Shown: positions 4,882 to 13,727 of the stretch, in pieces
Layout: every line of letters starts with the position of its first letter
Position numbering within the stretch: position 1 is the stretch's first letter
IMG/VR virus record: IMGVR_UViG_3300032288_005005
Location: 1 to 21,874 of that record
Reading direction: 5' to 3' (one strand)
From: a virus
Length of the DNA stretch: 21,874 nt
Program-made: the position numbers and the translations under genes
The notes under the pieces: generated by a model
Told to the model about the DNA's origin: nothing
The model's database searches: none
Seen by the model: the letters and a program-made list of their open reading frames with translations, nothing else

Positions 4882-5148
4882 TCAGGTACGGAGTTCGCTC
4901 TCTTCGCGCTTGGCCTTGTACCGAGTGTAGCTCTCGTCGGCCTTGGCCTTGGCGTTGGGGTCCAGCTCGACCTCCTCGATCCGGACCTCGGGGCCTGAGC
5001 CCGAGCAGTACAGATAGGAGCTGGTGTCGTAGTCGTAGTGGCTGTGGACCTGTGAAAGGTTGACAACAAACCCTGCAAGGGCCTGCAGGTCTTTCTCGTT
5101 CAGGTGGCCGACGGCGAAGCGGTATCCGTTGATGTTCAGAACTTTCAC
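4882..5148 (-). CDS. Small phage protein, unknown function
   Basis: A protein of 88 residues that I do not recognise. The N-terminal half looks globular (VLNINGYRFAVGHLNEKDLQALAGFVVNL in parts); the C-terminal third is rich in Lys, Glu and Arg and probably helical. There are no membrane segments and only one Cys. The start is GTG at 5148, three bases after the shared ribosome site AGAAAGGATAGAG, which decides the start. It is the last gene of the arm, with its own promoter-hairpin leader (5172-5227) and a terminator just after the stop, so it can be made as a single-gene transcript. Confidence 0.85.
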   Translation of the reverse strand: MKVLNINGYRFAVGHLNEKDLQALAGFVVNLSQVHSHYDYDTSSYLYCSGSGPEVRIEEVELDPNAKAKADESYTRYKAKREESELRT

Positions 5149-5171
5149 GACTCTATCCTTTCTAGGGTTGT

Positions 5172-5227
5172 ACTGGGCCGGTTGGCCCAGTAGCGCTATT
5201 ATAGCATCAGTCTACGCTGATCGACAA
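5172..5227 (-). promoter_or_regulatory. Promoter P1 with leader hairpin (for gene 4882-5148)
   Basis: Minus strand: -35 TTGTCG (5222-5227), 18-bp spacer, -10 TATAAT (5198-5203) preceded by TGC, then AGCG and the hairpin ACTGGGCC-AACC-GGCCCAGT (5172-5191). The ribosome site AGAAAGGATA follows at 5154-5163. The -35 overlaps the end of the upstream gene. Same layout as P2 to P5. Confidence 0.75.
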
Positions 5228-5575
5228 GCTGACGTGGTGGCGCAGAGCGTTGCGCACCAGATCTGCCACATCAAGTTCGCTGACTGCTTCGTCAACCTTA
5301 GACTCAACATCGTCCGACAGGACAAAGTCGTCCAGGTCGTAGTTGCTCATGTACTCGCTGATGCGGTCGTAGTCCTCGTGGTCGTACTCGTCGGTGTGGT
5401 AGCTCATGGCCTTCTCGACCGCAGGTTCTACCTGCGCCTCGACGATGGGGACAACCAGCTCACGCAGCTTGTCCAGGTCAACTTCGGGCGTGTGGTCGGC
5501 GAGCGCGGCCTTGATCCGCGCATCGATGTGGGTGTTGAGCGCTTCGAGCAGCGCGGTCAGGATGGGGTGGTCCAT
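5207..5575 (-). CDS. Acidic small phage protein, unknown function
   Basis: A protein of 122 residues, strongly acidic: many Asp and Glu, with a central run of YDHEDYDRISEYMSNYDLDD type. The N terminus (MDHPILTALLEALNTHIDARIKAAL) and the C terminus look helical. Very acidic small phage proteins are often DNA mimics or inhibitors of host DNA-binding proteins, but nothing here shows that. ATG at 5575 sits behind AGAAAGGATAGAGACC, which fixes the start. It has its own promoter-hairpin leader (P2) and is followed by P1, so it is probably a one-gene unit with read-through. Confidence 0.85.
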   Translation of the reverse strand: MDHPILTALLEALNTHIDARIKAALADHTPEVDLDKLRELVVPIVEAQVEPAVEKAMSYHTDEYDHEDYDRISEYMSNYDLDDFVLSDDVESKVDEAVSELDVADLVRNALRHHVSLSISVD

Positions 5576-5600
5576 GGTCTCTATCCTTTCTGGGGTTGAC

Positions 5601-5657
5601 CTGGGGGCGGCTGCCCCCAGCGGCGCTATTGTACCACGGGCTCTGAATACTTTGCAA
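5601..5657 (-). promoter_or_regulatory. Promoter P2 with leader hairpin (for gene 5207-5575)
   Basis: Minus strand: -35 TTGCAA (5652-5657), 18-bp spacer, -10 TACAAT (5628-5633), then AGCG and the hairpin CTGGGGGC-AGCC-GCCCCCAG (5601-5620). The ribosome site AGAAAGGATAGAG follows. The promoter overlaps the 3' end of the upstream gene (5626-5883). Confidence 0.75.
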
Positions 5658-5883
5658 GCAGGGCATCTGCTTGCGTCTTGGTGATGGACAAGGACACCGC
5701 CTTGTCTTCGCGGCGATCCTCATCGCCTGAAATGAACGTGATGTACGGCGACGCGGGATCGTCAAACGGGATGGTCAGGACCATCTCGACGATCAAGCCG
5801 GGAGCGCGAACCACTTCCATCTCGTAGTCGGTGTAACCATACTGGTTCTGGTCGGTGGCGAGCTGGGTGCAAACGAGCTTCAT
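5626..5883 (-). CDS. Small phage protein, unknown function
   Basis: A protein of 85 residues, not recognised. It is a mostly beta-looking sequence (EMEVVRAPGLIVEMVLTIPF, SPYITFISGDEDRR), then a predicted helix ITKTQADALLAKYSEP. It is soluble, without Cys clusters or membrane segments. Its ATG (5883) overlaps the TGA of the preceding gene as ATGA, so it is translated by coupling to that gene and depends on promoter P3. Promoter P2 of the next gene lies in its last codons. Confidence 0.85.
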   Translation of the reverse strand: MKLVCTQLATDQNQYGYTDYEMEVVRAPGLIVEMVLTIPFDDPASPYITFISGDEDRREDKAVSLSITKTQADALLAKYSEPVVQ

Positions 5884-6074
5884 GCTGCGTCCTCCGCATC
5901 CGGGAACATCTCTTTCTCCAGCTCGGCAAGGAACTCGATGATGTCCTGCAGGTTGCTGCCGACAGTCTCGCCGAAGCTTGCCTCGTCAATGGGCAAGCTG
6001 AGCAGCTCGGGTTCGAGGCTCTTCTGGATATCGTACGCCGCGAACAGGGCGCTCTGAATGTCTTCGAGTCGCAT
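5880..6074 (-). CDS. Small acidic helical protein, unknown function
   Basis: A protein of 64 residues, mostly helical and acidic (MRLEDIQSALFAAYDIQKS, then IIEFLAELEKEMFPDAEDAA). I do not recognise it. A longer reading frame upstream is open, but ATG at 6074 is placed directly behind the shared AGAAAGGATAGAGACC ribosome site and after promoter P3, so that start is well supported. It is first gene of a two-gene unit with 5626-5883. Confidence 0.85.
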   Translation of the reverse strand: MRLEDIQSALFAAYDIQKSLEPELLSLPIDEASFGETVGSNLQDIIEFLAELEKEMFPDAEDAA

Positions 6075-6094
6075 GGTCTCTATCCTTTCTAGGT

Positions 6095-6152
6095 GACTGG
6101 GGCAACGCGCCCCAGTCCCGCTATTATACACCGACCGCGCGCCGCGCTGCAA
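6095..6152 (-). promoter_or_regulatory. Promoter P3 with leader hairpin (for 6074 to 5626 unit)
   Basis: Minus strand: -35 TTGCAG (6147-6152), 18-bp spacer, -10 TATAAT (6123-6128), then AGCG. The hairpin at 6095-6117 has a 9-bp stem (GACTGGGGC / GCCCCAGTC) and a 5-nt loop. The ribosome site AGAAAGGATAGAG follows at about 6077-6090. The -10 overlaps the stop codon of the upstream gene. Confidence 0.78.
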
Positions 6153-6381
6153 GAAACTTTTGCCGCGCCTCGTCTTCGATCTCTTTCGCTAGGTCCGCGC
6201 CCCCGGACCGACCGATCCATCCGTACCCGAACCACCCGTACTGGGTCCGCTCGACCACGATCTCGTTCTCTCCCCAGGTCAAAACGATGAAGTCATTGCC
6301 CCGGGCAATGGCCTTACGCAGCGCCGCGCGCAGCGAGACGATGCTCGGTTTCCGAGCGAAGCTGTGCATCGAGCTGTTCAT
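6124..6381 (-). CDS. Small phage protein, unknown function
   Basis: A protein of 85 residues. The N-terminal third is basic and helical (SLRAALRKAIARGNDFIVLTW). The middle looks like beta strands with an aromatic Gly-rich turn (YGWFGYGWIGRSGGAD), and a basic helix ends it. I do not recognise the family. ATG at 6381 overlaps the TGA of the upstream gene (ATGA), so it is translationally coupled and belongs to the unit driven by P4. A second ATG five codons in is possible. Confidence 0.83.
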   Translation of the reverse strand: MNSSMHSFARKPSIVSLRAALRKAIARGNDFIVLTWGENEIVVERTQYGWFGYGWIGRSGGADLAKEIEDEARQKFLAARRAVGV

Positions 6382-6758
6382 GCGAGCCCCCTAGTAGCCG
6401 GGAAGCGCTGCAGGGCAGGGAAGCCGTCCGCGTCCGTGACCAGATAGCCGCCCAAGCACGTGCAGCGGAACCCGTTCTCGCAGTTGATCAGCACGACGCC
6501 AGCGTCGCCGTGCGAATCCTCCGCGTCCAAACGGCGGATGGAGTTCCAGACGCCGAAGCTCAGCGCGCCCTTGTCGCCGTTCGTGCACTCCTGCACGAGC
6601 CGAGCCGTAGCATATTCCGGGTCCCCGGGCCGCGCGGCCATACGCGCGGCCAACCGGCGCACGATCTCCGGGGCATCGCTCCCGGACCAGTGGCAATAGA
6701 CCACAGGGCCCGCGCCCTTGTCCCCGTGGATTACTTGGAATAACACTCGATCACCCAT
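6378..6758 (-). CDS. Phage protein, unknown function (first gene of P4 unit)
   Basis: A protein of 126 residues. Visible features are VVYCHWSGSDAPEIVRRLAARMA near the N terminus, then YATARLVQECTNGD, and a Cys-containing C-terminal part (INCENGFRCTCLGGY). HWSG plus a following helix recalls a family of small uncharacterised phage proteins, but I cannot name it with confidence. The frame is open further upstream, but ATG at 6758 follows AGAAAGGATAGAGCC, which decides the start. It overlaps the next gene by ATGA. Confidence 0.85.
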   Translation of the reverse strand: MGDRVLFQVIHGDKGAGPVVYCHWSGSDAPEIVRRLAARMAARPGDPEYATARLVQECTNGDKGALSFGVWNSIRRLDAEDSHGDAGVVLINCENGFRCTCLGGYLVTDADGFPALQRFPATRGLA

Positions 6759-6778
6759 GGCTCTATCCTTTCTGATCT

Positions 6779-6835
6779 GCCGGTGCACCATTGCACCAGC
6801 GCCGCTATTGTAGCACGGCCTTTTCCGCCGTGCAA
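6779..6835 (-). promoter_or_regulatory. Promoter P4 with leader hairpin (for 6758 to 6124 unit)
   Basis: Minus strand: -35 TTGCAC (6830-6835), 17-bp spacer, -10 TACAAT (6807-6812) preceded by TGC, then AGCG. The hairpin at 6779-6800 has stem GCTGGTGCA / TGCACCGGC with one T-G wobble and a 4-nt loop. The ribosome site is at 6764-6773. Confidence 0.78.
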
Positions 6836-7011
6836 GCCCCCCGGAGCATGCTCCGGAGGCCGGGGAACGTGGCGCGCGCGCCACGTTTAGCGCGTCATGC
6901 GCCGGGGACCGGGGGCCCGGTTTCCCCTTGCGGAGCTAACCGCGCAAAACCGCATGATTCCCCGCGCCGCAAGAGCGAATGCGAGTCATTCTCACTCGCA
7001 TTCTCATTTGG
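6836..7011. other. Non-coding region with palindromes between P4 and the DUF932 gene
   Basis: No gene seen. It contains a perfect 16-bp palindrome CCGGAGCATGCTCCGG (6841-6856), a perfect 22-bp palindrome (6866-6887, core GGCGCGCGCGCC), a GC-rich dyad around ACCGGG/CCCGGT (about 6908-6921), and a 10-bp stem GAATGCGAGT / ACTCGCATTC with a 7-nt loop (6977-7003). The last one begins 9 bp past the DUF932 stop codon and may stabilise or end that transcript, but it lacks a U tract. The same bases resemble a Fur box. Confidence 0.65.
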
Positions 7012-7971
7012 TTAAGCGGCCAGCAGCTCAAGGGCTCGATTCTTCAGGGCGGCACCAGTGCCAAACCATGCGGATTCGAGGCGCGTGCTCACGCTGCGGC
7101 CCCGCTCATGGTCCACAAGTTCGGTTACCGCGTTCAGCATCGCCCAGCGCGTACCCTTCACGCCGGGGATATCGGACCCGATAGCCTGCCCCTCGAATAG
7201 CGCCATGATTCGTTTGTAGCCCTTGGTTTCCGTTAGGGCCAGCTTGCCAGTGTGGTACGGCTGCAGCAGGGCCTGGACGAAACTGTCCGCCTCTTCGGCC
7301 TTCATGGGCACGCCGGCCAGCTTGCGGGATTCCACCAAAAAGCGCTCCCAGTGGTCCGCCACAATGCCCAGCTCTAGGCGCACTGCATCAGCGTCAAAGC
7401 GCTCAGAGTGCAGCACGCGGACGGAGCCGGTGTTGTCTCCGGCCAGTGCACGGGTGATGGTGTTATTGCACACCACGCGAATGCCGGTGAACTTCGCGAC
7501 CGTGGCCATGGTCCCGTCGTAACTAGTGCCCAGCAGCAAATAGGCGCGGACCATATCGCCGTCAACCACTGGGGCCTGAGGACCTACCCGCGCCAGCGCC
7601 CAAACCCGTTTACCGTCCGACAGTGCCCCGGCGGTTTCCAGCTCGAACCCGCCCAGCTCCGCCAGCTTGCCAAAGAATCCCATTACTTCCGAGGGCTGGA
7701 CCACGCGGTAGCCGTCCGACACCACGGCCAGCGGTGCGCCGGTATCCGAACGGTGCAGAACTTTCCTGTTCGGCCATGCCTGTAGTCCCGTTACTGCGGG
7801 GGTGTTATACAAAACCGGGGATTCCAGCACGGTGTAATCCAAACCGGCCTGTTCGGTCCACTCCTGAATTGTGGAGCCCGGCTGCAGGGCCTGCCCCAAA
7901 CCGTGCCACGGTACCGCACCAGCGTATGCCATGGCAGCGCGGCCGGTCGTCTCGTCGATCATGTGAGCCAT
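7012..7971 (-). CDS. DUF932 / TIGR03299 phage-plasmid protein
   Basis: A protein of 319 residues that I recognise as a DUF932 (phage/plasmid-like TIGR03299) protein by its N-terminal AVPWHGLGQAL, the motif DGYRVVQPSEVMGFF (about residues 88-102), SYDGTMATVAKFTGIRVVCNNTI (about 150-172) and the C-terminal region ending in STRLESAWFGTGAALKNRALELL. The family is widespread in phages and plasmids; its biochemical role is not settled as far as I know. Length is close to the usual. The frame extends 27 codons further upstream, but ATG at 7971 lies behind TGAAAGGATAGAGAAA, the local version of the shared ribosome site. It is a single-gene unit with its own promoter (P6), longer leader and downstream hairpin. 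Confidence 0.92.
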   Translation of the reverse strand: MAHMIDETTGRAAMAYAGAVPWHGLGQALQPGSTIQEWTEQAGLDYTVLESPVLYNTPAVTGLQAWPNRKVLHRSDTGAPLAVVSDGYRVVQPSEVMGFFGKLAELGGFELETAGALSDGKRVWALARVGPQAPVVDGDMVRAYLLLGTSYDGTMATVAKFTGIRVVCNNTITRALAGDNTGSVRVLHSERFDADAVRLELGIVADHWERFLVESRKLAGVPMKAEEADSFVQALLQPYHTGKLALTETKGYKRIMALFEGQAIGSDIPGVKGTRWAMLNAVTELVDHERGRSVSTRLESAWFGTGAALKNRALELLAA

Positions 7972-8001
7972 TTTCTCTATCCTTTCAGTGTTGAGGGTTT
8001 G

Positions 8002-8052
8002 CCGGATTGTGGTCCGGTCCGTGGATTTTAGTCCTAAATTGTCCACTGTCAA
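8002..8052 (-). promoter_or_regulatory. Promoter P6 with leader hairpin (for DUF932 gene)
   Basis: Minus strand: -35 TTGACA (8047-8052), 16-bp spacer, -10 TAAAAT (8025-8030). A leader stem CCGGA / TCCGG (8002-8017, 6-nt loop) follows, then TGAAAGGATAGAG. The -35 matches the sigma70 consensus and differs from the TTGCAC type of the other leftward promoters. Confidence 0.65.
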
Positions 8053-8060
8053 CAGTGCGG

Positions 8061-8129
8061 CTATTGTTGATCGAAACGGTCAACAATCCACCACAGCAGC
8101 AGGAACAGCAGCAGCACGACAAATATCAC
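8061..8129 (-). CDS. Candidate 22-residue membrane micropeptide
   Basis: GTG at 8129 opens a 22-codon frame, almost entirely hydrophobic for the first 16 residues (IFVVLLLFLLLWWIV), ending in the charged tail DRFDQQ. This is what a single-pass membrane peptide looks like. AAGGGGGG, which overlaps the stop codon of the preceding gene (8139-8381), sits at ribosome-site distance before the GTG, so coupling to that gene is likely. P6 of the DUF932 gene begins just after its stop. The evidence is hydrophobicity, the ribosome site and packing between two units; a chance frame is still possible at this length. Confidence 0.5.
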   Translation of the reverse strand: MIFVVLLLFLLLWWIVDRFDQQ

Positions 8130-8138
8130 GGGCCCCCC

Positions 8139-8381
8139 TTATCCGCGCAATGTCGGGAAAGCTTGCCGCAGCGCTTCGGCCAGCAGCTCGGCGTCTTCCT
8201 GCAGTCCACAGTCCGCAATGCACTCTACCCCTCCCTCCACGCAGTGCAGATATACGCACCACATGTGGATATTGGGATGCCCGGGCTCTACTCGCTCAAG
8301 TATCGGCGTGCCATCAGATAGGTGACCGTCGATGGTAATGGGGTCCACTTCTACGGCGTCGTATCCGGTTATATCTTTCAT
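8139..8381 (-). CDS. Small phage protein, unknown function
   Basis: A protein of 80 residues. It contains IHMWCVYLHCVEGGVECIADCGLQEDAELLAEALRQAF in its second half: four Cys in a mixed strand-helix pattern, with no classical CxxC pair. The first half is acidic (MKDITGYDAVEVDPITIDGHL). I do not recognise it. ATG (8381) overlaps the stop of the upstream Cys-rich gene as ATGA, so the two are co-translated from promoter P5. Confidence 0.83.
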   Translation of the reverse strand: MKDITGYDAVEVDPITIDGHLSDGTPILERVEPGHPNIHMWCVYLHCVEGGVECIADCGLQEDAELLAEALRQAFPTLRG

Positions 8382-9076
8382 GCGCCGATCTCCTCGCCAA
8401 TATCCCCGGCCACATGGTGGCGCAGCATCGAGCCTGGGGGCAGCGAACGAGCGAACGAGCGAACAGCTTCCGCGTCATTCGCTGCGCCGGTTTTGCGGGT
8501 CCCGTGCCACTGGATAGCCGTCGGGCCCCCGGCGGCATAACATCCGCCTTTACCCGTGCCCACCCTCTTCGCGCCGCTACCGTGCGCAACGAACACAATC
8601 ACATAATCGCGATCACCACGAGCGCACAGGGGGCTACCGTCTCCGCACTGCGAACACGTGAAGCTATCGGACAGCTCAGCAGGGCAACGAATAAACCGGA
8701 CACCCTGATACACCCACGGGAAAGCTTCCGCCGTGTCCACCGGAGCGGCCAGCACAGCAGGACGGCCCAGCTCTACCGTGCGCACAGCTTCGGCCATGCT
8801 GTCACATGATGCGTTAAAAACGGTTTTGCCCGGCTTCGGTGTCGGCAGCGCTTCCGCCGGAAAATGAGAGTAAGTCCACGCGGAACCATTACGCGGTACC
8901 GCGTCTTCCACGGCCTGCATATATTCCACGTCCACCACACTGGTGCCGGTCTCGCTCTTCGGATGCAGTGCGCACGAACGGGGGCATGTTCCGTAAGTTT
9001 CATGCACGCCACTGCGATAAGTCACAGCAATAGGTCCGGTCTTACGGTTACCGGATACAGGAACGGTTTTCAACAT
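8378..9076 (-). CDS. Cys-rich phage protein, DUF7227-like
   Basis: A protein of 232 residues. Motifs in order: VSGNRKTGPIAV (7-18), TCPRSCAL (30-37), FNASCDSM (87-94), CPAELSDSFTCSQC (131-144), CARGDRDYVIVFVAHGSG (151-168) and GGCYAAGGPTAIQWHG (177-192). The combination CPxxCxL with GCYAxxGPxxxxW is what I know from uncharacterised phage proteins grouped as DUF7227. The eight Cys (31, 35, 91, 131, 141, 144, 151, 179) could hold Zn or an Fe-S cluster; the chemistry is not known to me. ATG at 9076 follows AGAAAGGATAGAGACC, so the longer upstream frame is rejected. First gene of the P5 unit, followed by 8139-8381. Confidence 0.82.
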   Translation of the reverse strand: MLKTVPVSGNRKTGPIAVTYRSGVHETYGTCPRSCALHPKSETGTSVVDVEYMQAVEDAVPRNGSAWTYSHFPAEALPTPKPGKTVFNASCDSMAEAVRTVELGRPAVLAAPVDTAEAFPWVYQGVRFIRCPAELSDSFTCSQCGDGSPLCARGDRDYVIVFVAHGSGAKRVGTGKGGCYAAGGPTAIQWHGTRKTGAANDAEAVRSFARSLPPGSMLRHHVAGDIGEEIGA

Positions 9077-9095
9077 GGTCTCTATCCTTTCTGAG

Positions 9096-9147
9096 TGCCG
9101 CACAACCACGGCAGGGGAAATATAGCACAGTGCCGCTAGTCGTGCAA
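9096..9147 (-). promoter_or_regulatory. Promoter P5 with leader hairpin (for 9076 to 8139 unit)
   Basis: Minus strand: -35 TTGCAC (9142-9147), 17-bp spacer, -10 TATATT (9119-9124) preceded by TGC, and a weaker hairpin TGCCG / CGGCA with an 8-nt loop (9096-9113). AGAAAGGATAGAG follows. The -35 lies inside the last codons of the upstream nuclease gene. Confidence 0.72.
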
Positions 9148-10704: not shown

Positions 10705-11126
10705 GTGGAAAGAGCGAAGCGTGGAAAGGCCCTAGTATAGGCCAGGGGCGTTTCCAAGGGGTGTCTATAGAGGTTTTTTCACTAAGAAGAGAAAATTTTT
10801 TTCAAAAAAGTGTCTCGCGGATCTCCCCTGAAAATCTTACACCTGTTGACTAGACGTAATTTGACGGATGCTCCTAAGTCCTTGATTTCATTGACTTCTT
10901 ACACCACTCGTCAAATTACGCCTAATCTCACAAAAAAAATTTCAAAAACACTTTTTCCTGCCAGAGGTCTATCTAGACTTACTTCTACCTTACAAAAACA
11001 CCCCCAACCAAGGGTTTACCCTTACCAAAACGCACGTTTTGCGCAACCACTGCACACTTGACCCTCGGTCCGCGAACAGTTATACTATGTGCACCCTTTG
11101 GGCAAACTTAGAGAAAGGATAGTGCA
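10705..11126. promoter_or_regulatory. Divergent control region, candidate origin or operator cluster
   Basis: This 422-bp gap between leftward and rightward arms has no believable gene; an 83-codon GTG frame (10810-11061) lacks a ribosome site. It is far more AT-rich than the rest of the window, with A/T tracts at about 10776-10810 and 10930-10958. Seen in it: a perfect 12-bp inverted repeat CGTAATTTGACG (10855-10866) / CGTCAAATTACG (10909-10920), a direct repeat TCTTACACC (10835-10843, 10897-10905), and three short dyads GTCTATCTAGAC (10967-10978), AAGGGTTTACCCTT (11010-11023) and AAAACGCACGTTTT (11027-11040). A clear rightward promoter follows. Such a layout fits repressor operators, an origin, or both. 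Confidence 0.7.
11058..11086 (+). promoter_or_regulatory. Promoter P7 for the rightward operon
   Basis: TTGACC (11058-11063), 17-bp spacer, TATACT (11081-11086): a near-consensus sigma70 promoter. Transcription would begin at about 11093. The leader carries AGAAAGGATAG (11112-11122), the same ribosome site as the leftward units, 5 bases before ATG at 11127. No strong hairpin lies in this leader, unlike P1 to P4. Confidence 0.85.
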
Positions 11127-11375
11127 ATGGGTATGACGAAGAAGCAGCGCGTCGAACAGGTAGAGGCGCTATTGGAATCCGCTCCTGAGCGCATGGAGGA
11201 GCTGGTGAACTTCTTGGGCGAGAAGTACGAGGTCCCGTTTGATGCGTTGGTGACGATGATGTTGACCACGTCGTTGTTGGCCAAGACAATGGGCATGCCA
11301 GTAGCTACGCTGGTAGAGGGCATCGAGAAGGCGTACGAAACTCTGGATGACGAAGATGCAAAGCTCCTCCAATAA
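11127..11375 (+). CDS. Small helical phage protein, unknown function
   Basis: A protein of 82 residues, almost wholly helical: a charged N-terminal helix (KKQRVEQVEALLESAPERMEELVNFLGEKY), then a Met-rich, more hydrophobic middle (FDALVTMMLTTSLLAKTMGMPVATL) and an acidic end. No known domain. The start is fixed by AGAAAGGATAG. It is the first gene after P7, so among the earliest and most strongly expressed genes of the rightward operon. Confidence 0.88.
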   Translation: MGMTKKQRVEQVEALLESAPERMEELVNFLGEKYEVPFDALVTMMLTTSLLAKTMGMPVATLVEGIEKAYETLDDEDAKLLQ

Positions 11376-11985: not shown

Positions 11986-12314
11986 AGCGGCTTTTGGGGC
12001 TGGTGTTGGCGGCGATGACAACAGTGGCTGCGCATGCGGACACGGTGGCGACGTTGCGCAACAAGGCGGGCGGGGTGATTGTTTTAACGGACGTGACAAC
12101 GGATTCGTGTCGTGGGTTTGTGGGGGCGGCGTATTCCACGACTTCCAGCAACCGGACGATGTGGGGGTGCTGGTTCTCCGATGACCTGATGGTGCACATC
12201 AAGTGGTCGGATGGGGACAGCACGGCGTATTCGGTGGATGTTTTTGACATCAACGAGGCGGTGGCCAGGAGGCTGCGCAATCGGTTGAAGGGCCCGGAAG
12301 GGAGGACGCTGTGA
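11982..12314 (+). CDS. Exported phage protein with signal peptide
   Basis: A protein of 110 residues. MKRLLGLVLAAMTTVAAHA is a textbook signal peptide with the cleavage motif AHA before Asp 20. The mature part is small (about 91 residues) and mostly strands (GGVIVLTDVTTDS, MWGCWFSDDLMVHIKWSDGDSTAYS), with two Cys that could pair in the periplasm. Function unknown; exported phage early proteins often alter the cell surface or superinfection, which is only a guess here. The frame is open upstream, but ATG at 11982 starts the signal peptide, follows GAGGGGAAAGCG, and overlaps the stop of the Trp-rich peptide. Confidence 0.87.
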   Translation: MKRLLGLVLAAMTTVAAHADTVATLRNKAGGVIVLTDVTTDSCRGFVGAAYSTTSSNRTMWGCWFSDDLMVHIKWSDGDSTAYSVDVFDINEAVARRLRNRLKGPEGRTL

Positions 12315-12580
12315 CCCGCGACGACATCATCCGCATGGCGCGGGAAGCAGGAATGGAATGGCCTGTTTGGGGTGTGTCTGAAGGCGACATTACCCGCTTC
12401 GCCGCCCTTGTTGCCGAGCATGAGCGTGAGCACGGCATAAAACTACTCCTAGATGTGCTGATTGATGCTGCGGTGAAAGCAGAGCGTGAGGCGTGTGCAG
12501 ATATTGCGGAAAACTGGCGTTGCAACGGAGCGCCGCGAGTTGGGGTTGCCGCAGCCATCAGAGCAAGGGGGAAGGAATGA
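12311..12580 (+). CDS. EREACA...IRARG family cassette protein, copy 1
   Basis: A protein of 89 residues. The N-terminal half is specific to this copy (MTRDDIIRMAREAGMEWPVWGVSEGDITRFAALVAEHE). The C-terminal half carries the family signature VKAEREACADIAENW...AAAIRARGKE, shared with the genes at 12783, 13028 and 13300. This copy is the most divergent, with CADIAENW where the others have CAKVCD. GTG at 12311 overlaps the upstream TGA. Its 3' end contains the first copy of the 26-bp junction repeat, which also supplies the ribosome site (GAAGGA) of the next gene. Function unknown. I associate this signature with phages of Burkholderiales. Confidence 0.83.
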   Translation: MTRDDIIRMAREAGMEWPVWGVSEGDITRFAALVAEHEREHGIKLLLDVLIDAAVKAEREACADIAENWRCNGAPRVGVAAAIRARGKE

Positions 12581-12786
12581 CACTACGAGAAGCAGCACAG
12601 CAGGCGCTTGAGGCGCTGACGATACCGCCCGAGGGGCGCGACTTAAACCAGCAGGCGTTGGCTTGCTATCGCGCTGAAGCAATTCTCCGCGCCGCGCTTG
12701 CGAAGCCTGAGTGCAAACGACGCAATCCATGCGAAGCCGATGCAAGCGGCTACTGCGCTCGTTGCCATTCGGAGGCGTATCCATGA
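12577..12786 (+). CDS. Small phage protein with possible Cys/His metal site
   Basis: A protein of 69 residues. MTLREAAQQALEALTIPP is a helix common at the start of small phage proteins; CYRAEAILRAALAKP is a second helix; the end, CKRRNPCEADASGYCARCHSEAYP, has four Cys and a His spaced like a small zinc knuckle. The frame is open upstream, but ATG at 12577 is placed after the junction repeat (GGGGGAAGGA) and overlaps the previous stop. It interrupts the row of IRARG paralogues and has no junction repeat at its own 3' end, so it looks like an inserted unrelated gene. Confidence 0.82.
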   Translation: MTLREAAQQALEALTIPPEGRDLNQQALACYRAEAILRAALAKPECKRRNPCEADASGYCARCHSEAYP

Positions 12787-13031
12787 CACCGACCGAGATC
12801 AACCGGATGTGGCTGCAAAGCCAAGATGATTCCGAAGGAATGCGACTAGGTTTCACCACGCAACACCATTACTTCGCCGCCCTTGTTGCCGCTGCCGAGC
12901 GTGAGGCGTGTGCGAAGGTGTGTGATGACCGAGTAGCCGCATATCGGTACGCAACAGACCCGTGGGCGCAAGAACACATCGACGAAGCAAGGCATCTTGC
13001 CAAAGCCATCAGAGCAAGGGGGCAGGAATGA
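12783..13031 (+). CDS. EREACAKVCD...IRARGQE cassette protein, copy 2
   Basis: A protein of 82 residues. The copy-specific N terminus is MTPTEINRMWLQSQDD and GFTTQHHYFAALVAA; then come the family block AEREACAKVCDDR and the end AKAIRARGQE. ATG at 12783 overlaps the TGA of the previous gene. The last 26 bp are the second junction repeat. The conserved block is a single amphipathic helix with two Cys (CAKVC); with no more Cys or His nearby, a metal site would need dimerisation. Function unknown. Confidence 0.83.
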   Translation: MTPTEINRMWLQSQDDSEGMRLGFTTQHHYFAALVAAAEREACAKVCDDRVAAYRYATDPWAQEHIDEARHLAKAIRARGQE

Positions 13032-13303
13032 CACCAGAAAAAGTTGCTGAGTTGGCACGCACAGCAGGACTAAGCGAATCGCCTGACGACTACCATTCTT
13101 ACTGGACTGCCGACAACATAGACACACTGCAAATATTTGCCGTGTTGATTGCTTCTGCCGAGCGCGAATCTTGTGCAAAGGTGTGTGACAACTTGGCAAT
13201 AGATCGTGGGGCATTTCATCCTGATGACCAAGACATCAAGACAGGGCTTTTAGCGGGCGCTGCAATGTGTGCCGCAACCATCAGAGCAAGGGGGCAGGAA
13301 TGA
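13028..13303 (+). CDS. EREACAKVCD...IRARGQE cassette protein, copy 3
   Basis: A protein of 91 residues. MTPEKVAELARTAGLSE and a DNIDTLQIFAVLIAS segment are specific to this copy; AERESCAKVCDNLA and CAATIRARGQE are the shared parts. Between them a longer insert (IDRGAFHPDDQDIKTGLLAGAAM) makes this the longest member. ATG at 13028 lies in the second junction repeat, whose CAGGA is its ribosome site. Together with its neighbours it forms a translationally coupled chain. Confidence 0.83.
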   Translation: MTPEKVAELARTAGLSESPDDYHSYWTADNIDTLQIFAVLIASAERESCAKVCDNLAIDRGAFHPDDQDIKTGLLAGAAMCAATIRARGQE

Positions 13304-13545
13304 CGCCACAAGAAGCATACGAAAAACGATACACGCCCGAGAAGTTTGCAGAAGCGCCGCCAGAAGTGCGCGACGTTTGGCTGGCCGCGTGGACTATTGC
13401 TTGGGCAATGGCCGAACAAATGGAGCGTGAGGCGTGCGCGAAGGTGTGTGATGAATTGGCTGCATTGAACCGAAGTTCGCCTACCGATTCGATGTGGCAA
13501 TGGGGTGAGTGCGCCGCAGCCATCAGAGCAAGGGGTCAGGAATGA
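13300..13545 (+). CDS. EREACAKVCD...IRARGQE cassette protein, copy 4
   Basis: A protein of 81 residues. The N terminus MTPQEAYEKRYTPEKFAEAPP and VWLAAWTIAWAMAEQ is its own; MEREACAKVCDELAALN and CAAAIRARGQE are the family parts. At DNA level the block around GAGCGTGAGGCGTG is nearly identical to copies 1 and 2, while the N-terminal coding part is unrelated. ATG at 13300 lies in the third junction repeat; the fourth repeat closes the gene and starts the zinc-ribbon gene. Confidence 0.83.
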   Translation: MTPQEAYEKRYTPEKFAEAPPEVRDVWLAAWTIAWAMAEQMEREACAKVCDELAALNRSSPTDSMWQWGECAAAIRARGQE

Positions 13546-13727
13546 GATGCGACCGCTGCGGCGAAGAGAACCCTGCTGACATTCACACATGCAGCCCCAA
13601 GGACGTGATCTGCCCGAAGTGCGAGTCCGAGGAGTGGGACTACGTGGAGTTTGAGCGGGGAATGGAGGACGGGGACAAGCCGTTTTTCCGGTGCTTCCAT
13701 TGTCAGCACGAATGGAGGGAGCGATGA
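13542..13727 (+). CDS. Small zinc-ribbon protein
   Basis: A protein of 61 residues with three CxxC pairs: CDRC (3-6), CPKC (about 35-38) and CFHC (about 52-55), plus a Cys at about 18. The second and third pair, separated by about 13 residues including WDYVEFERG, form a classic zinc ribbon. Such phage proteins bind nucleic acid or the transcription machinery, but no specific role can be read. ATG at 13542 lies in the fourth junction repeat (TCAGGA before it), so the longer upstream frame is rejected. Confidence 0.83.
   Translation: MRCDRCGEENPADIHTCSPKDVICPKCESEEWDYVEFERGMEDGDKPFFRCFHCQHEWRER

Follow-up and report, generated by a model that had tools for sequence, protein, structure and literature searches.

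A promoter-hairpin-ribosome-site unit repeated before many genes in a group of freshwater-type phages

Certain phages of freshwater type open many genes with one kind of unit, in which a promoter is followed by a hairpin and a Shine-Dalgarno (SD) sequence. We describe this unit in a virus contig fragment of 21,874 nucleotides (IMG/VR record IMGVR_UViG_3300032288_005005, positions 1 to 21,874; hereafter the window) and in its relatives, and the comparison strongly supports the notion that selection maintains the fold and position of the hairpin, not its letters. The units are suggested to be cassettes that are shuffled among genes and whose 5'-terminal stem-loop would block 5'-end-dependent decay of the messenger RNA (mRNA) in the manner of the ompA and T7 gene 10 leaders, a reading to which we give a probability of about 0.6.

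Six leftward units are found on the minus strand of the window between positions 4882 and 9147 (Table 1), each with the order -35, -10, hairpin, linker, extended SD and start codon. A preliminary description of this DNA had listed five of them (U1 to U5), which proved to be real, with positions and hexamers as given and with -35/-10 spacers of 17-18 bp; the unit before the gene for a DUF932 protein (U6), whose promoter (TTGACA-16-TAAAAT) is the nearest to consensus among the six, had been overlooked. The block AGAAAGGATAGAG before the start codon is exact in U1-U5 and differs by one base in U6, while the AGCG that was said to follow most of the -10 hexamers stands directly 3' of them in U1-U4 only. 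A mechanical detector built on the criteria -10, stem, SD and open reading frame (ORF) start returned exactly these six units from both strands of the whole window, compared with 0-1 calls per shuffle in 20 dinucleotide shuffles. The 12-mer GAAAGGATAGAG occurs nine times in the window with at most two mismatches, against 0.9 expected. Many matches of a pattern search are due to chance or unrelated. No match in the window exceeded the gathering score of any Rfam family.

The claim that the stems differ completely between copies was overstated, as U1-U4 have (A/G)CTGG and its partner in common at or near the base of the stem and diverge mainly further in; the hairpins of U5 and U6 are truly different in sequence and fold more weakly, with the U6 hairpin reaching p = 0.003 against its shuffles. 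Because four stems share sequence and the other two fold weakly, the window alone is thin evidence for covariation. A covariance model (R1, trimmed stems) recovered U1, U2 and U4 at E <= 0.02 and U3 only at 2.6 and missed U5 and U6, being too weak as a scanning tool because sequence conservation is absent. The covariance-model match of U1 has E = 3e-8, the U1 sequence itself being among those from which the model was built.

About 85 relatives provide the decisive evidence. We scanned for the DUF932 protein and inspected 110 bases upstream of its gene in 80 related loci, in almost all of which -35, -10, hairpin, SD and ATG are present. The hairpins of these leaders are highly diverse (for instance CCGGGATTATCCGG, ATCGTTCGGTTGCGAACGAT, GTCGCTGCAATTGCAGCGGC and CGTCGGGGGCTTTTCCCCGGCG), and since the leaders were picked by protein and not by hairpin, the hairpin is not an artefact of selection. 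Among 26 such leaders at <=80% identity, the promoter by itself sufficed to parse 22, of which 15 have hairpins that beat their own shuffles (p <= 0.05); a stem is visible by eye in several of the unparsed leaders. In DSL-LC04, the closest isolate (61.5 kb, Dishui Lake; TerL 63% and DUF932 72% identical), the leader is built in the same way but its SD block is a different one, CATACAGGAGAAA. Across about 88 related loci the detector made 220 distinct calls, with the -10-to-stem spacing sharply at 6-7 nucleotides where up to 16 were allowed, whereas 268 kb of unrelated contigs yielded 18 calls and no peak at this spacing. A -35 match of at least 4/6 accompanies 45% of the modules, compared with 9% of shuffled sequence, and TATAAT is the most frequent -10. 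No series of modules was seen in the examined parts of HTVC027P, 023Pt_psg01 and Pag-Yong1. One such leader is found in Acidovorax phage ACP17, which belongs to another phage group and in whose 156 kb the detector made no more than about five calls; the leader precedes a DUF932 gene (40% identity; locus L147, near position 6001) and reads TATACT-AGCGGCA-hairpin-SD, the hairpin being followed by a T-run.

The modules precede 41 protein families in total, the four largest of which have 14 (DUF932), 10, 11 and 9 distinct hairpins. The leaders orthologous to that of U5, for instance, retain the hairpin in 11 distinct versions. Moreover, 47 pairs of near-identical hairpins stand before non-homologous ORFs, some possibly through mis-called starts. 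The replacement of hairpins within families, together with their sharing across unrelated ORFs, indicates that the fold is kept while the letters change and that the cassettes move between genes. No sequence is common to the loops or stems, either across or within genomes. Related leaders were compared in twos, with the stem defined in just one of them each time; 12 double changes led from pair to pair and 5 ended unpaired or in G-U, while single changes produced G-U 19 times and A-C 7 times (binomial p = 0.029). A palindrome recognised as double-stranded DNA would give A-C as often as G-U, and hence this excess argues for selection at the RNA level, a line of evidence of moderate strength; an initial count of 17:1 was discarded since its stem caller favoured G-U. 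An alignment of 24 modules has a covariation score of 0.78 (0.23 with partners shuffled, <=0.24 with partners slid), which reflects the diversity of pairs and does not prove pairing, because the rows were selected for good stems. The earlier proposal of selection on RNA structure is thus supported mainly by the relatives, through orthologues with replaced hairpins, compensatory pairs and G-U in excess of A-C; there the pairing is kept and the sequence replaced.

The position of the hairpin is also informative. When 68 modules are aligned on the -10, the seventh base after it is a purine in 76%, and the sixth and eighth are pyrimidines in 76% and 78%, respectively. Bacterial transcription starts usually show such a Y-R-Y pattern, which played no part in the detection of the modules. 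With the start predicted at this seventh base, which is a purine in all six units of the window on direct reading (A, G, A, G, G, A), 84% of the stems begin within 1 nucleotide of the RNA 5' end, in agreement with the earlier suggestion that the hairpin sits at the very 5' end of each mRNA. The linker between hairpin and SD is A/C-rich, nearly free of G and broader in its length range (interquartile range 5-9; 4.75-7 for the -10-to-stem gap). Given the sharp gap and the broad linker, the hairpin is positioned relative to the transcription start and not tightly to the ribosome site.

Divergent promoters of the same phages offer a contrast between strands. None of 8 non-redundant divergent promoters with the same SD had a hairpin, compared with 44 of the 55 cases from the module strand (Fisher 2e-5), indicating that the hairpin does not simply come with promoter and SD. 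The example in the window (11058-11127, plus strand) opens a rightward operon, and its GAAAGGATAGTG is nearly the same SD block as in the leftward units. A comparison of hairpin presence with promoter score gave no association (Fisher p = 0.6), which is due to a 'no promoter' class that included modules with CATAAT or GATAAT as -10; the contrast between strands takes its place.

These features fit a self-contained, transferable expression cassette. They strongly support a sigma70-type promoter from which transcription starts about 7 nucleotides after the -10, so that the mRNA is predicted to begin on, or at most about one base from, a G+C-rich stem-loop, followed by a short A/C-rich, G-poor linker and the extended SD. 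With the 5' triphosphate end buried in the helix, RppH-type removal of pyrophosphate and 5'-end-dependent entry of RNase E would be hindered; short phage messages of one or a few genes may therefore live longer, and their expression would not depend on the downstream gene. Reshuffling of the cassettes among genes would take place in the variable region that separates the genes for the small (TerS) and large (TerL) terminase subunits. In Escherichia coli, 5'-terminal stem-loops stabilise mRNAs (Emory 1992; Bouvet and Belasco 1992, both as cited in PMC3997798), and in Cupriavidus necator (Burkholderiales) the T7 gene 10 stem-loop placed before the SD raised a reporter 1.5-3-fold along with mRNA abundance (PMC6146998). 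The leaders of ompA, papA and T7 gene 10 likewise have a stem-loop upstream of the SD at the mRNA 5' end, which for our units is predicted; they are single leaders, however, whereas the present hairpins are repeated gene by gene with unrelated sequences. Some observations weigh against a role in decay. A role at the 5' end cannot account for the inverted repeat that about one fifth of the modules have ahead of the start site, and the hairpins of U5 and U6 are energetically unremarkable, folding little or no better than shuffled sequence. In addition, a few relatives miss a good hairpin at the DUF932 gene (e.g. L086) or score poorly there (L052 and L062), and with strand-symmetric callers on representative stems G-U exceeded A-C by only 15:6 (p = 0.08).

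Two other explanations assign the hairpin a role in termination or translation. The units may resemble the promoter-early stem-loops (PeSLs) of T4-type phages and act as recombination and terminator cassettes, which would insulate genes from upstream transcription and supply homology for the shuffling of small genes, as is known for PeSLs from work cited in PMC4503421. We consider this unlikely, even though the same hairpin occurs before unrelated genes (the 47 pairs with their possible mis-called starts), 41 protein families are involved and the small-gene region between TerS and TerL is variable. A U/T-run follows the hairpin in only 4 of 72 modules and a strong SD comes after it; as the hairpin is downstream of the start site of its own promoter, it would terminate the message of its own unit; and replaced stems make poor recombination homology, the only shared blocks being the SD and the -10. 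A translation insulator, that is, a self-folding hairpin that leaves the linker and SD free whatever flanks them, is less likely still. It would suit the A/C-rich linker, nearly without G, and the slightly lower computed SD accessibility when the hairpin bases are shuffled (0.639 to 0.604, p = 0.003), but accessibility is the same when the hairpin is deleted (0.633) and the stem follows the start site, not tightly the SD. The earlier idea that the hairpin keeps the ribosome site open is hence not borne out, and the independence of SD accessibility from the hairpin, together with the missing U-run, argues against ribosome-site-opening and terminator roles alike.

The remaining explanations appear improbable. 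An RNA-binding protein of phage or host, or a put-like antitermination factor, could read the hairpin at the 5' end, which would agree with its common position and size and with the restriction of the unit to one transcription direction; put-type elements have a conserved sequence, unlike these hairpins, and as the stems and loops have no sequence in common, only their shape could be read. Recognition as double-stranded DNA, as an operator or cruciform, is very improbable: inverted repeats beside the -10 in about 20% of the modules do lie outside the mRNA of that promoter, but there is no common operator sequence, G-U exceeds A-C in the downstream hairpin (19:7) and its position tracks the start site. 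We regard as equally doubtful a purely mutational origin, in which template switching at replication would keep quasi-palindromes perfect without selection. Paired changes and perfect palindromes in the spacer would be expected from this process too, but it cannot account for the fixed place by the start site, the presence in orthologues or the lack of hairpins at divergent promoters that have the same SD.

The inverted repeats just mentioned lie in the -35/-10 spacer and were observed in 10 of the 51 modules with a recognisable -10 (score >=18), compared with 0.85% of shuffles. In the window U4 has one (Table 1), and others occur in L094, L112, L113, L021, L018, L047, L108, L087 and L138. Their 3' arm mostly abuts the -10 and their sequence differs per copy, for instance ACAGGGCGC-AT-GCGCCCTGT directly before TATAAT in L094 and CCCACAAGCC-GCGA-GGCTTGTGGG before ATAAT in L087. 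Such a repeat cannot be part of the mRNA from its own promoter; possible explanations are an action on the DNA, a role in read-through RNA or template-switch mutation. In read-through RNA, the AU-rich gap between the two hairpins would be a plausible RNase E site. It is conceivable, though on balance we doubt it, that these modules form a two-hairpin promoter class in which hairpins of DNA or read-through RNA flank the -10 and control initiation or processing; we found no description of such a class in the literature examined.

Among known systems, the PeSL cassettes (Arbiol 2010; cited in PMC4503421) are closest to the present units by logic, with a repeated sigma70-like promoter and stem-loop before small shuffled genes of a variable region. 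The PeSL stem-loop is a terminator, whereas here the U-run is absent in 68 of 72 modules and the stem stands at +1 of its own promoter. Here, moreover, the hairpin leads straight into a fixed SD and is free in sequence while its pairing is kept, and the phages belong to the DSL-LC04-like group, not to the T4-like myoviruses. Closest by anatomy are the SAS/ESAS elements of cluster K mycobacteriophages and cluster EF Microbacterium phages, in which a conserved 13-bp sequence covers the SD, is complementary to the 16S 3' end and has a further conserved element just upstream (in cluster K, 17-bp inverted repeats with an arm consensus), repeated before many small genes (PMC3203893, PMC7302621). The authors found no support for RNA pairing of the cluster K repeats and proposed DNA-binding sites (PMC3203893). 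Our units likewise have a near-invariant 13-bp block over the SD, although AGAAAGGATAGAG differs in sequence from the GGGATAGGAGCCC of SAS/ESAS, and their arms have no consensus but do pair, with the pairing kept and the sequence not. N4-type hairpin promoters were rejected as a counterpart, because in our units neither loop nor stem is conserved in sequence and the hairpin follows the -10, and because the annotation of DSL-LC04 includes no RNA polymerase.

In this phage group, many unrelated genes would share one modular, sequence-independent RNA fold as their standard opening, an equivalent in nature of the 5' stem-loops built into engineered expression vectors. Dozens of natural variants with different letters and the same fold make a ready test set for the effect of a 5'-terminal helix on mRNA life during infection. 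In contigs of freshwater phages with poor annotation, the unit may also be used as a marker to call small genes and the starts of transcription.

Table 1. Positions of the units, their genes and other features in the window
Feature	Position	Strand	Description
U1	5148..5227	-	-35 TTGTCG 5227-5222; 18-bp spacer; -10 TATAAT 5203-5198; AGAAAGGATAGAG 5163-5151; GTG 5148
U1 hairpin	5192-5171	-	TACTGGGCC-AACC-GGCCCAGTA; folding z -3.4
Gene of U1	4882..5148	-	88 aa; relatives' orthologues with 10 distinct hairpins
U2	5573..5657	-	-35 TTGCAA 5657-5652; 18-bp spacer; -10 TACAAT 5633-5628; AGAAAGGATAGAG 5591-5579; ATG 5575
U2 hairpin	5620-5601	-	CTGGGGGC-AGCC-GCCCCCAG; folding z -1.3
Gene of U2	5207..5575	-	122 aa; no family above cut-off
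U3	6072..6152	-	-35 TTGCAG 6152-6147; 18-bp spacer; -10 TATAAT 6128-6123; AGAAAGGATAGAG 6090-6078; ATG 6074
U3 hairpin	6117-6095	-	GACTGGGGC..GCCCCAGTC; folding z -3.7
Gene of U3	5880..6074	-	64 aa; no family match
U4	6756..6835	-	-35 TTGCAC 6835-6830; 17-bp spacer; -10 TACAAT 6812-6807; AGAAAGGATAGAG 6773-6761; ATG 6758
U4 hairpin	6800-6779	-	GCTGGTGCA-ATGG-TGCACCGGC; folding z -2.7
U4 spacer inverted repeat	6813..6833	-	GCACGGC-GGAAAAG-GCCGTGC; 3' arm adjoins -10
Gene of U4	6378..6758	-	126 aa; no family match
U6	7969..8052	-	-35 TTGACA 8052-8047; 16-bp spacer; -10 TAAAAT 8030-8025; TGAAAGGATAGAG 7987-7975; ATG 7971
U6 hairpin	8017-8002	-	CCGGACCACAATCCGG, read as CCGGA-CCACAA-TCCGG; folding z -0.9
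Gene of U6	7012..7971	-	DUF932 protein, 319 aa; Pfam PF06067, E=5e-56; phrog_1221
U5	9074..9147	-	-35 TTGCAC 9147-9142; 17-bp spacer; -10 TATATT 9124-9119; AGAAAGGATAGAG 9092-9080; ATG 9076
U5 hairpin (weak)	9113-9096	-	TGCCGTG-GTTG-TGCGGCA; folding z 0.0
Gene of U5	8378..9076	-	DUF7227 protein, 232 aa; Pfam PF23872, E=3e-32
Divergent promoter	11058..11129	+	TTGACC-17-TATACT; GAAAGGATAGTG; ATG 11127; without strong hairpin
TerL	4542-3046	leftward	
TerS	10228-9545	leftward	
PolA-family polymerase	18174-16309	leftward	
UvrD-like helicase	19673-18171	leftward	
Primase	21443-19911	leftward	

The units are located between TerS and TerL in the window and likewise in DSL-LC04, which has a Pam1-like adaptor; the next nearest TerL is that of HTVC027P. 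The extended SD, AGAAAGGA, is complementary to UCCUUUCU, the 3' end of Burkholderiales-type 16S rRNA, and pairs fully with the 16S end CCTCCTTTCT in the genus of a metagenome-assembled genome (MAG) that carries a relative, the MAG assignment being uncertain. One phage-like contig region that has hairpins of both types (L138 and L139) occurs in two MAGs that share an isolate prefix, one assigned to Rhodoferax and the other to Verrucomicrobiota; therefore at least one binning is wrong, and host assignment by MAG is ambiguous.

Some further repeats were observed in the window. Directly after the last unit-driven gene and ahead of TerL, a terminator-like hairpin is followed by a T-run (4874-4855, minus strand; AGCCCGGCAGCCGCCGGGCTTTTC). 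A perfect 10-bp inverted repeat, GAATGCGAGT..ACTCGCATTC (7003-6977), lies just after the stop codon of the DUF932 gene, with no T-run in the direction of the gene. Adjacent small ORFs at 12250-13590 on the plus strand have similar starts and similar sequence, with the opposite-strand text CATTCCTG.CCCCTTGCTCTGATGGCTGCGGC recurring among them, and probably represent a tandem paralogous family.

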